Source: Actinomycetota bacterium | GTDB taxonomy: Bacteria > Actinomycetota > Actinomycetes > Actinomycetales > Microbacteriaceae | DNA length: 49,696 nucleotides | Assembly (NCBI GenBank): GCA_947450345.1 | Contig: CANFVD010000007.1 | Span: forward strand, 1 to 49,696 | Direction: 5' to 3' | Shown: one piece after another, positions 1,465 to 39,749 of the stretch | Layout: every line of letters begins with the position of its first letter | Position numbering within the stretch: the stretch's first letter is position 1 | The notes under the pieces: model-generated | What the model saw: only the letters and a program-made list of their open reading frames with translations | What the model was told of the DNA's origin: nothing | Databases searched by the model: none | Program-made: the position numbers and the translations under genes

Positions 1465-2237
1465 ATCGTCTCCCGCTCATTGCGGGTAACTGGAAGATGA
1501 ATCTCGATCACCTGCAAGCCATTGCGTTCACTCAGAAACTCGCGTGGACACTGCGCGATGCCAACCACGACTACTCAACGACCGAAGTGGCGCTGTTCCC
1601 TCCGTTCACTGACCTGCGCAGCATCCAGAACCTCATCGAAGGCGACAAATTCTCGTTGGCCTACGGCGGTCAGGATTTGTCCATGCACGATACCGGTGCG
1701 TTTACCGGGGAGATCAGTGGCGGATTTCTCCGCGCTCTCGGCTCCAAGTACGTGATCATTGGCCACTCAGAACGTCGGCAATTTCACGCAGAAACTGACG
1801 AGGTTGTGCGCTCAAAGGTAGAGGCAGCTCTGCGGCACAATCTCATTCCGATCGTTTGTGTCGGCGAGACCGAGGCTGACCTGGCGCAGTACGGCCCCAG
1901 CGCCGTGCCGGTGTCTCAGCTGTCGGCGGCGCTGTCGGGAATTGCTGCGTCGGAAATCGTCATCGCTTACGAGCCGGTGTGGGCTATCGGGACGGGCAAG
2001 GCAGCGACCGAGGAGCAGGCACAGCAAGTCTGCAGCGCTTTGCGCATTGCGCTCACCGAGGTCTGGGGCGTCGACAGTGGTGAATCAACCCGCATCCTGT
2101 ACGGCGGTTCGGTAAAGTCCGGCAACATCTCGTCATTCATGCGACAGCCCGATGTGGATGGTGCTTTGGTCGGTGGCGCCAGCCTCGACGTCGCGGAATT
2201 CTCAAGTATCTGCCGGTTCCTCAAGCACGTCGTTTAG
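1455..2237 (+). CDS. tpiA: triosephosphate isomerase
   Basis: A 260-residue TIM-barrel enzyme interconverting dihydroxyacetone phosphate and glyceraldehyde 3-phosphate. The substrate lysine lies in AGNWKMN near the N-terminus, the catalytic histidine in IGHSERRQF, and the catalytic glutamate in AYEPVWAIGTG, followed by the phosphate-binding GGSVK and GALVGGASL loops. The ATG lies inside the 3' end of pgk with a 10-base overlap in another frame. Length and motif order are normal. Confidence 0.97.
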   Translation: MAVNRLPLIAGNWKMNLDHLQAIAFTQKLAWTLRDANHDYSTTEVALFPPFTDLRSIQNLIEGDKFSLAYGGQDLSMHDTGAFTGEISGGFLRALGSKYVIIGHSERRQFHAETDEVVRSKVEAALRHNLIPIVCVGETEADLAQYGPSAVPVSQLSAALSGIAASEIVIAYEPVWAIGTGKAATEEQAQQVCSALRIALTEVWGVDSGESTRILYGGSVKSGNISSFMRQPDVDGALVGGASLDVAEFSSICRFLKHVV

Positions 2238-2242
2238 TCGAG

Positions 2243-2248
2243 TAGACT
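2243..2248 (+). promoter_or_regulatory. possible internal -10 box before secG
   Basis: TAGACT lies just after the tpiA stop and about 40 bases before the secG ATG. The same hexamer recurs upstream of other genes in this window. No clear -35 is seen, so an internal promoter feeding secG-rbpA is only plausible. Confidence 0.3.
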
Positions 2249-2289
2249 AAGCGGAGGTTTTCTTTCGTCCACGAAATCAAGGTTTTTGT

Positions 2290-2540: not shown

Positions 2541-2900
2541 GTGGCCGGAGGCAGTGCCATTCGTGGCTCGCGTGTTGGTGCGGGCCCCATGGGGGAGCAG
2601 GACCACGGCGTACACGCCGAGCGAATTGCTGTTGCCTACTGGGATGCCCTGGGCAATGAGACCATTCGTTACTACGCCGCCAGCCTTCCCGCGGAGGAAA
2701 TCCCCGACACCATCGATTCGCCAACGTCAGGCTTGCCTGCCGGTCGCGACAAGAACAGCCCTCCCGAGTTAGCGAAGAACGAGCCGTACAAGACTCACTT
2801 GGCCTACGTGAAGGAACGCCGCACGCCGGAAGAGGCGCAACAGATCCTTGATGATGCACTCCACCAATTGCGCGTGCGTCGCGGAACCGCAAAGGGCTAG
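2541..2900 (+). CDS. RbpA-family RNA polymerase-binding protein, cysteine-free paralogue
   Basis: A 119-residue protein starting at GTG, 2 bases after secG, with a GGGAG ribosome site 8 bases upstream. Its N-terminus (AIRGSRVGAGPMGE) resembles the RbpA N-terminal tail. Its C-terminus (YVKERRTPEEAQQIL through LHQLRVRRG) matches the sigma-interaction helix of RbpA. The middle should be the zinc-binding core but contains no cysteine at all, unlike the second RbpA at 39378-39749. RbpA proteins bind RNA polymerase and group 1/2 sigma factors and stabilise open promoter complexes. I infer a structurally stabilised, metal-free RbpA-like factor. Its job relative to the zinc-type paralogue is unknown. 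Confidence 0.75.
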   Translation: MAGGSAIRGSRVGAGPMGEQDHGVHAERIAVAYWDALGNETIRYYAASLPAEEIPDTIDSPTSGLPAGRDKNSPPELAKNEPYKTHLAYVKERRTPEEAQQILDDALHQLRVRRGTAKG

Positions 2901-37877: not shown

Positions 37878-39442
37878 TTTCTCGCTGGCGCACCGCTTTA
37901 CCGATTTACGCCGCCATACCCGTGGCTGCGGTTGGTGGACTCACTCTCAGTGCGTCATTTCCCGAACCGGGCTGGTGGTTCCTCGCCGTCCCGGGAATCG
38001 CACTGATTATCTGGGCACTCGCGGGTCGAAAGTGGTGGAGTGCGCTCATCGTGGGCCTCGCGTCGGGCATCGCCTTCTGGCTTCCCCTCATTGACTGGCT
38101 CACACTGTATCTCGGGCCCATTCCCTGGCTCGCCCTAGCGTCGCTCATGATTCTGTGGATGGCTCTCGGAGCCGTCGCCACGTCGTTCGTGCTCACGCAC
38201 GGGCCTCGGGTGTTCACAACGGTGCGCACACAGGTGATCGTTATTCCGCTCCTCGTTGCGGGGCTGTGGGTCGCAAGAGAAGGAATCTCGGCCGTGTGGC
38301 CGCAGGGCGGATTCTCGTGGGGACGGGTGGCACAATCACAACCCGAAGGAGCATTCGGGCACCTTGTGTCATGGGTTTCGACCGCGGGACTCAGTTTCGT
38401 CTTAGTTTGGCTGGCGGCCATGATCGTGGTTCTCGTGCGCGTGGCACACGCTCGCTGGCTCTGGTCGATTCCCGTCGTCGTGACGGTCGTTCTGATTCTT
38501 GTTCCGTCATTTCCCATTCAGCAAACGGGCACGATGCGCGTTGGGGCAGTTCAGGGAAACGCTGACGCGGGACTTTTTTCCGGCTACACACCAGGAGAGA
38601 TTCTCAACGATCACCTGAGTGCTTCCGAAGAATTGGTGGGCAAGCCGCTTGACGTCGTCGTCTGGCCCGAGAACGGCAACGACATCGATCCCATACGTGA
38701 CGAGGTTTCGGCACGCCTGATGAACGATCTCGCGGTGCGACTCGACGCCCCGATTGTCTTTGGCACCATTACGCACCCCACTCCCGATACCTACTTCAAC
38801 ACATCCCTCGTGTGGACTCCCGATGAGGGAGTCACCGGGCAGTACGACAAAATTCACCCCGTACCGTTCGCGGAATACATGCCCGCGCGCGACATATTTC
38901 ACGCGCTCGTTCCTGATCTCGTTGACCTCGTGACGCGGGACTATTCATTTGGCACGCGCCCGAACGTACTGACCATCGGCGAAACTCCCGTGGGCCTGTC
39001 AATCTGTTTTGACATCACCGACGATCAACAGGCCTTTGACATGGCACGTGACGGAGCACAGATCGTCTTTGCCCAAACAAACAACGCCGACTTCGGACGC
39101 ACCGACGAGAGTTATCAACAATTGGCGATAGCCCGTCTTCGCGCCATGGAAATGGGGCGAACCGTCGTAAACATTTCAACAGTGGGAGTCTCGGCCATCA
39201 TTGCTCCCGACGGGTCAACCATCGCGTCTCTTCCGCGATTTACGGCGGGTGCAATGTATGAAACCGTGCCGCTCTCCACGACCATGACCCCCGCGATGTT
39301 GCTCGGGCGAGCCCTTGAAATAGTCCTTGCTGCCGGGGGAGTGCTCGGCTCTGCTTTTGTTGTCGTGAGGGTTGTCGCTAAGCGCCGAGCTTCTCCTGGC
39401 CGCGGCGCGCCCGCAGGTACTGCAAACGCTCCTGAAGAATAA
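37874..39442 (+). CDS. lnt: apolipoprotein N-acyltransferase
   Basis: A 522-residue membrane acyltransferase. The N-terminal half has about six helices and the C-terminal domain is a nitrilase-like hydrolase. The catalytic triad is E266 in WPENGND, K326 in YDKIHPVPF and C378 in SICFD. A last helix lies near residues 475-497. It adds the third acyl chain to lipoproteins such as the FKBP at 31205. Its last 65 bases overlap the rbpA gene on the other strand. Confidence 0.93.
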   Translation: MISRWRTALPIYAAIPVAAVGGLTLSASFPEPGWWFLAVPGIALIIWALAGRKWWSALIVGLASGIAFWLPLIDWLTLYLGPIPWLALASLMILWMALGAVATSFVLTHGPRVFTTVRTQVIVIPLLVAGLWVAREGISAVWPQGGFSWGRVAQSQPEGAFGHLVSWVSTAGLSFVLVWLAAMIVVLVRVAHARWLWSIPVVVTVVLILVPSFPIQQTGTMRVGAVQGNADAGLFSGYTPGEILNDHLSASEELVGKPLDVVVWPENGNDIDPIRDEVSARLMNDLAVRLDAPIVFGTITHPTPDTYFNTSLVWTPDEGVTGQYDKIHPVPFAEYMPARDIFHALVPDLVDLVTRDYSFGTRPNVLTIGETPVGLSICFDITDDQQAFDMARDGAQIVFAQTNNADFGRTDESYQQLAIARLRAMEMGRTVVNISTVGVSAIIAPDGSTIASLPRFTAGAMYETVPLSTTMTPAMLLGRALEIVLAAGGVLGSAFVVVRVVAKRRASPGRGAPAGTANAPEE

Positions 39443-39749
39443 CCTCGAGCTCGTCGCGCGTGCGGCGCTCGAGAAGCATGTCAAAGGGTGTGCGCGCAAC
39501 CTTCTCGTCCTCGGCTGCCGCCGCGAGGCGACCAGCAGCTCCGGGTTCGCCGAGCGTTGCGGATTCTCCGCAGGTTGAGCAGGTCCACTCATCGGGATTC
39601 TCGGCGTCCGCGGCAAACGTCATCGTGGTCGTCTTTCCGCACGACCCACAGAGGTAGTGAACCTGCTTCCGATCGGAGAAGACGATGCCCTCATCGCTCG
39701 CCAAGCTTCGACTGTTGAGACTCGAACCCCTCAGGGACTGACTGCGCAT
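39378..39749 (-). CDS. rbpA: RNA polymerase-binding protein RbpA (zinc type)
   Basis: A 123-residue RbpA. The N-terminal RGSSLNSRSL is the RNA-polymerase tail. A zinc ribbon has CGSCG (C34, C37) and CSTCG (C57, C60). A basic/linker segment leads to the sigma-interaction helices FDMLLERRTRDELEVILQERL. It stabilises RNA polymerase open complexes with the main sigma factor. The ATG has GGAGG upstream. The 3' end overlaps lnt by 65 bases. A cysteine-free paralogue is at 2541-2900. Confidence 0.93.
   Translation of the reverse strand: MRSQSLRGSSLNSRSLASDEGIVFSDRKQVHYLCGSCGKTTTMTFAADAENPDEWTCSTCGESATLGEPGAAGRLAAAAEDEKVARTPFDMLLERRTRDELEVILQERLQYLRARRGQEKLGA

Follow-up and report, generated by a model that had tools for sequence, protein, structure and literature searches.

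Known RbpA proteins and the locus analyzed here

The closest described relatives of the protein analyzed here are the canonical RbpA proteins (SCO1421 of Streptomyces coelicolor, the Mycobacterium tuberculosis protein in PDB entries 6c04 and 6bzo and the Mycobacterium smegmatis protein in 5tw1), with which it shares the Pfam family, the domain order (N-terminal tail, core, linker and sigma-interaction segment), the core fold and counterparts of residues R10, R88 and R89. In vitro, the critical contacts of RbpA come from the linker and the sigma segment; M. tuberculosis K76 and R79 are described as absolutely conserved among orthologues, and R79, whose contact on the non-template strand is the phosphate that lies between positions -13 and -14, is required for activation in vitro (PMC5302886). 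With the R88A substitution, M. tuberculosis RbpA no longer affects the stability of the open complex (PMC8956947). Deletion of canonical rbpA is lethal in mycobacteria and tolerated in Streptomyces (PMC6344877), where SigR activates this gene under thiol-oxidative stress (PMC5742136). The current knowledge of RbpA is mostly mycobacterial, and mycobacteria have the canonical type only. Given that the zinc ligands are absent from mycobacterial canonical RbpA as well, a zinc-free RbpA is not new per se. Another point of comparison is the Zur-controlled ribosomal protein paralogues, among which a zinc-free copy exists alongside a zinc-binding one. An RbpA paralogue of Streptomyces (RbpB) may have been mentioned before; a second Streptomyces RbpA under this name was not found in the open-access literature.

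The window (the whole stretch of 49,696 nucleotides of Microbacteriaceae DNA that was analyzed) encodes two RbpA-family proteins, which are the only copies of PF13397 in the assembly (82.6% complete). The open reading frame at 2541-2900 on the forward strand starts with GTG and encodes 119 amino acids without a single cysteine (PF13397, 100.5 bits, E = 9.4e-29, with a family cut-off of 25 bits), and the one at 39378-39749 on the reverse strand encodes 123 amino acids with the CxxC...CxxC motif in the form CGSC...CSTC (PF13397, E = 1.7e-26). An earlier note on this DNA had placed both proteins in the RbpA family at these coordinates, one with the CxxC...CxxC motif and one without cysteine, and had tied the cysteine-free one, as a paralogue, to secG and glycolysis; the translations, the Pfam matches and the gene order across Actinomycetes bear this out. 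The GTG codon follows the secG stop codon after 2 bases, and secG (2290-2538) is preceded on the same strand by tpiA (1455-2237) and pgk (250-1464); the identity of these neighbors and of 6-phosphogluconolactonase was confirmed with Pfam. Presumably, secG and the paralogue are co-transcribed. The gene on the reverse strand adjoins lnt, which encodes an apolipoprotein N-acyltransferase, and a GDPD gene. No NCBIfam model matches 2541-2900, and no phage-encoded relatives were found.

Between tpiA and secG, a terminator-like hairpin with a T-rich tail is located at 2230-2254 (forward strand), and secG together with the paralogue may form a transcript of their own, apart from tpiA; hairpins of this kind are no more frequent in the region than expected by chance. 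The canonical copy is divergent in the genus from which the window comes (long branch), whereas the secG-linked copy is well conserved; in the canonical copy, the tail motif is degraded (RGSSLNS for RGxRLG) and the sigma segment has RTPFDM for RTHWDM.

Two ancient RbpA paralogues in Actinomycetes

In the combined tree, all secG-linked sequences lie on one side and all canonical sequences on the other side of a split that has 100% support. On this topology, the genes at 2541-2900 and 39378-39749 are ancient paralogues, and the product of 2541-2900, which belongs to a separate clade and is encoded in a different locus, is not an orthologue of canonical RbpA (SCO1421/Rv2050). The genomic context follows the same division. 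The RbpA paralogue adjoins secG in all secG-linked loci read, across all families of the class Actinomycetes that were read and in the pgk-tpiA-secG setting, whereas lnt and/or a GDPD gene are found at 42 of the 70 canonical loci (some of these loci are partial) and at none of the secG-linked loci; one Mycobacterium-like canonical locus has lnt as a neighbor, too. The secG-linked orthologues from other families (e.g., L165 and L358) are approximately 50-61% identical to the product of 2541-2900 and have the same tail and EPYKTHLAYVKERR segment, but retain a CxxxH...CxxC pattern where the Microbacteriaceae form mostly has D/N/(S or C)/(S or T).

Both paralogues are retained in most of the sampled Actinomycetes genomes, and about 95% of the Microbacteriaceae genomes in the sample carry the secG-linked copy. 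Family f28 possesses the secG-linked paralogue, in its zinc form, as the sole RbpA in 30 of the 30 sampled genomes (1.2-2.2 Mb), and in seven genera of Microbacteriaceae (G301, G311, G326, G345, G347, G355, and G368) the single PF13397 match is the zinc-free secG-linked copy; three of the genomes from these genera are single contigs with 98-99% completeness. Given these two groups, the secG-linked clade can manage without canonical RbpA. The opposite distribution is found in genomes that we labelled, by inference from genome size and sequence, Mycobacterium-like (f10), which have canonical copies only, and the secG-linked paralogue is present in those that we likewise labelled Streptomyces-like (f23). 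Either paralogue alone can thus suffice for a lineage. One of the Mycobacterium-like genomes (G003, L359) carries a second canonical-type RbpA, which lacks the zinc site.

Among 60 genomes sampled across the phylum, the RbpA family is nearly limited to the class Actinomycetes, and outside of this class only core-domain fragments were detected, in a single family (f53). The open reading frames of the latter (L355, L356, and L357) are short (94-115 amino acids) and match the RbpA core only, with the cysteines kept.

In the open-access literature searched, we found no description of the secG-linked RbpA paralogue, and, as far as this literature shows, the secG-linked clade, its broad distribution within the class, the replacement of the ligands and the existence of genomes with only the zinc-free secG-linked form are new. 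A population study of Cryobacterium reported opcA, secG and rbpA as the most frequent targets of selective sweeps (PMC12943682). Given that the gene list in that study includes secG, tpiA, pgk, whiA and opcA, the gene annotated as RbpA there is probably the secG-linked paralogue.

Loss of the zinc site

The lack of cysteine in a protein of 119 residues is unremarkable by itself: at a cysteine frequency of about 0.7%, we estimate the chance of this outcome at about 0.4. What does exceed chance, as judged from the alignments, is that precisely the four zinc-ligand positions are swapped, in nearly identical fashion across one family. The zinc ribbon ligands are C/H/C/C in all 52 secG-linked sequences read outside Microbacteriaceae and are replaced in 80 of the 87 Microbacteriaceae sequences, in agreement with the conservation of the cysteine-free form that the earlier note had proposed to look for in this family. 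The replacements are stereotyped: the first cysteine is replaced by D, the histidine by N, the second cysteine position is occupied by S, C or H, and the third cysteine is replaced by S or T; forms with DNCS, in which a cysteine is left at the third ligand position only, are common. The product of 2541-2900 has D35, N39, S60 and S63 at these positions and thus lacks a four-ligand zinc ribbon; by implication, it would carry no bound metal.

In the unconstrained tree, the seven zinc-bearing secG-linked sequences of Microbacteriaceae are nested among the zinc-free ones, and the tree in which the zinc-free sequences form one clade obtains the better score and withstands the AU test (AU 0.845), the genes being too short for the trees to place these seven sequences. 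This pattern is compatible with a single loss of the zinc site early in the evolution of Microbacteriaceae. The canonical copy has lost the zinc site in 39 of the 71 Microbacteriaceae sequences, with at least two changes in this family on the canonical tree, and losses occurred also in one other family of the order and among the Mycobacterium-like genomes. That the site was lost repeatedly, even to the point where a genome has no zinc RbpA at all, suggests that zinc is a structural element for which a substitute can be found.

Both copies were read in 69 Microbacteriaceae genomes. In 28 of these, including the genome of the window, a zinc-free secG-linked copy coexists with a zinc-bearing canonical copy; in 34, neither copy has the zinc site; four show the reverse arrangement (a zinc-bearing secG-linked copy and a zinc-free canonical one), and in three the zinc site is present in both. 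The idea that exactly one copy keeps zinc fails on these counts.

Two individual genomes deserve mention. In a very small Microbacteriaceae genome of 0.93 Mb (G311; L262, L227), the sole RbpA is of the secG-linked type, fast-evolving, with an eroded N-terminal tail and D, N, N and N at the ligand positions. In another, of 1.4 Mb (G323, L270), the secG-linked copy is lost, and the zinc ligands are lost from the single canonical RbpA as well.

Predicted structure and contact residues

An AlphaFold model of the 2541-2900 protein, built from 42 relatives, contains an RbpA-like core domain (residues 27-68, 2619-2744), i.e., four strands in a zinc-ribbon fold without the ligands, predicted with pLDDT of about 90. 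The 22 top-ranking Foldseek matches are without exception RbpA chains, mostly from RNA polymerase complexes. The modelled residues 27-70 superpose on 40 residues of zinc-free M. smegmatis RbpA (5tw1_J) with 1.2 A and on 39 residues of the RbpA core 2m6o with 1.7 A, so the structure comparison, which the earlier note had named as a possible refutation, recovered the expected core, in a predicted model. The full-length superposition is poor (rmsd of about 10 A, VIA Z 4.6, pTM 0.44) because of flexibility or uncertainty in the linker and the sigma segment; in the model, the stretch near residues 87-90 and the relative placement of the domains are uncertain. For the canonical copy, a model from its sequence alone was of low quality (pLDDT 59) and was set aside.

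The N-terminal tail (residues 1-26, 2541-2618) is modelled with low confidence, similar to the flexible tail of known RbpA, and contains the RGSRVGA version of the RGxRxG motif, with R8, G9, R11 and G13 invariant among the 42 relatives. R11 corresponds to M. tuberculosis R10, and R93 and R94, which correspond to the sigma-contacting R88 and R89, are likewise invariant among these relatives. The earlier note had stated that the tail and the sigma-interaction helices are kept, which holds for the tail motif and the sigma-contacting ERR but not for the sigma-interaction segment in full (residues 85-114, 2793-2882), where KTHLAY replaces RTHWDM. In the linker (residues 69-84, 2745-2792), the basic residues of canonical RbpA are altered in this paralogue, with E81 in place of K76 (a non-conservative change) and K84 in place of R79 (a conservative one), both invariant among the 42 relatives. 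Judging from these residues, sigma binding is likely kept, and, given E81, K84 and LAY for WDM, the contact with DNA may be modified, that is, weaker or different.

Functional alternatives

The selection data bear on whether the gene is functional at all. The dN/dS of 2541-2900 versus its relatives is 0.03-0.14 (approximate values, with synonymous sites near saturation), 47 of the 119 positions are invariant among the 42 relatives, and the median identity over 68 genomes is 0.80 for the secG-linked copy and 0.60 for the canonical copy. By these measures, the secG-linked copy is under strong purifying selection and is less variable than the canonical one. That the gene is a duplicated RbpA in decay, whose zinc site vanished under relaxed selection, is hardly credible against these values and the near-ubiquity of the gene in Microbacteriaceae, even though decay can show itself in the disappearance of a structural metal site and canonical RbpA repeatedly lost its own. 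Evidently, 2541-2900 encodes a real, family-wide and functional zinc-free form of the ancient paralogue. The earlier note had envisaged a standby for the zinc-ribbon RbpA under zinc limitation or oxidative stress, and the genome of the window, along with 27 others, does pair a zinc-free with a zinc-bearing copy, as the Zur-controlled ribosomal paralogues do; moreover, Streptomyces canonical rbpA responds to SigR under thiol-oxidative stress (PMC5742136), and the assembly encodes a SigR-like ECF sigma factor. A spare for the zinc form would be expected to co-occur with it, but systematic pairing with a zinc-binding partner was not found: the zinc partner is missing in half of the genomes with both copies, the arrangement is reversed or both copies bear zinc in others, and the zinc-free copy stands alone in seven genera. 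Unlike a recently derived C-minus copy of a zinc protein, the paralogue is old and has zinc-bearing relatives, and it is linked to housekeeping genes. A scan with one consensus detected no Zur box in the window within three mismatches, and the 82.6% complete assembly contains no Fur/Zur-family protein, in contrast to 13 of 14 control genomes. The 18 matches to the SigR-type promoter pattern in the window are at the chance level, with none immediately upstream of canonical rbpA. Given the pairing counts, the sole copies and the lack of Zur and Fur signatures in the window and the incomplete assembly, respectively, we regard the standby role as improbable.

The earlier note had also raised a preference for another sigma factor. 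Such a division of labor, in which the secG-linked clade, with or without zinc, serves another sigma factor or promoter class than canonical RbpA and the loss of zinc is incidental, would account for the substitutions that run through the clade where sigma and DNA are contacted (LAY for WDM, E for K76, K for R79) and for the coexistence of both paralogues in most Actinomycetes. It is nevertheless doubtful, considering that the f28 genomes and the seven Microbacteriaceae genera with this clade only must still serve the principal sigma factor, that the counterparts of R88 and R89 are retained and that only a principal sigma factor and one SigR-like ECF sigma factor were found in the 82.6% complete assembly. 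The explanation that we favor, and consider probable, is that 2541-2900 encodes a constitutive, metal-independent housekeeping RbpA paralogue that interacts with the principal sigma factor and RNA polymerase, in the form that the secG-linked clade takes in Microbacteriaceae. Under this scenario, the gene would descend from the ancient secG-linked paralogue, the zinc ribbon would have turned into a metal-free variant of the same small beta fold, and the protein would act at promoters constitutively and independently of zinc, as a housekeeping factor encoded with secG and not as a spare for stress.

A broader version of this scenario can be put forward tentatively, as a possibility that we rate below the favored explanation itself: the secG-linked clade would serve Actinomycetes as a second general initiation factor, with a distinct DNA contact and promoter preference, capable of fully replacing RbpA, and the Microbacteriaceae version would be constitutively metal-free. 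The different essentiality of rbpA in mycobacteria, which lack this clade, and in Streptomyces would then be explained. Given that the Mycobacterium-like genomes lack the secG-linked paralogue and the Streptomyces-like genomes possess it, matching the essentiality of rbpA (PMC6344877), this difference fits partial redundancy with the secG-linked paralogue, a link that we propose here. Should the secG-linked paralogue bind RNA polymerase, a second factor will have to enter the models of initiation for Streptomyces and its relatives, and the unequal essentiality becomes open to a direct test.

In a 100% complete Microbacteriaceae genome (G366), the only PF13397 match (L269:4773-5180, forward strand) consists of a Lys/Ser-rich linker and the sigma-interaction segment, with no core. 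This protein is possibly a natural minimal RbpA, an arrangement that echoes the contacts made in vitro by the linker and the sigma segment (PMC5302886).
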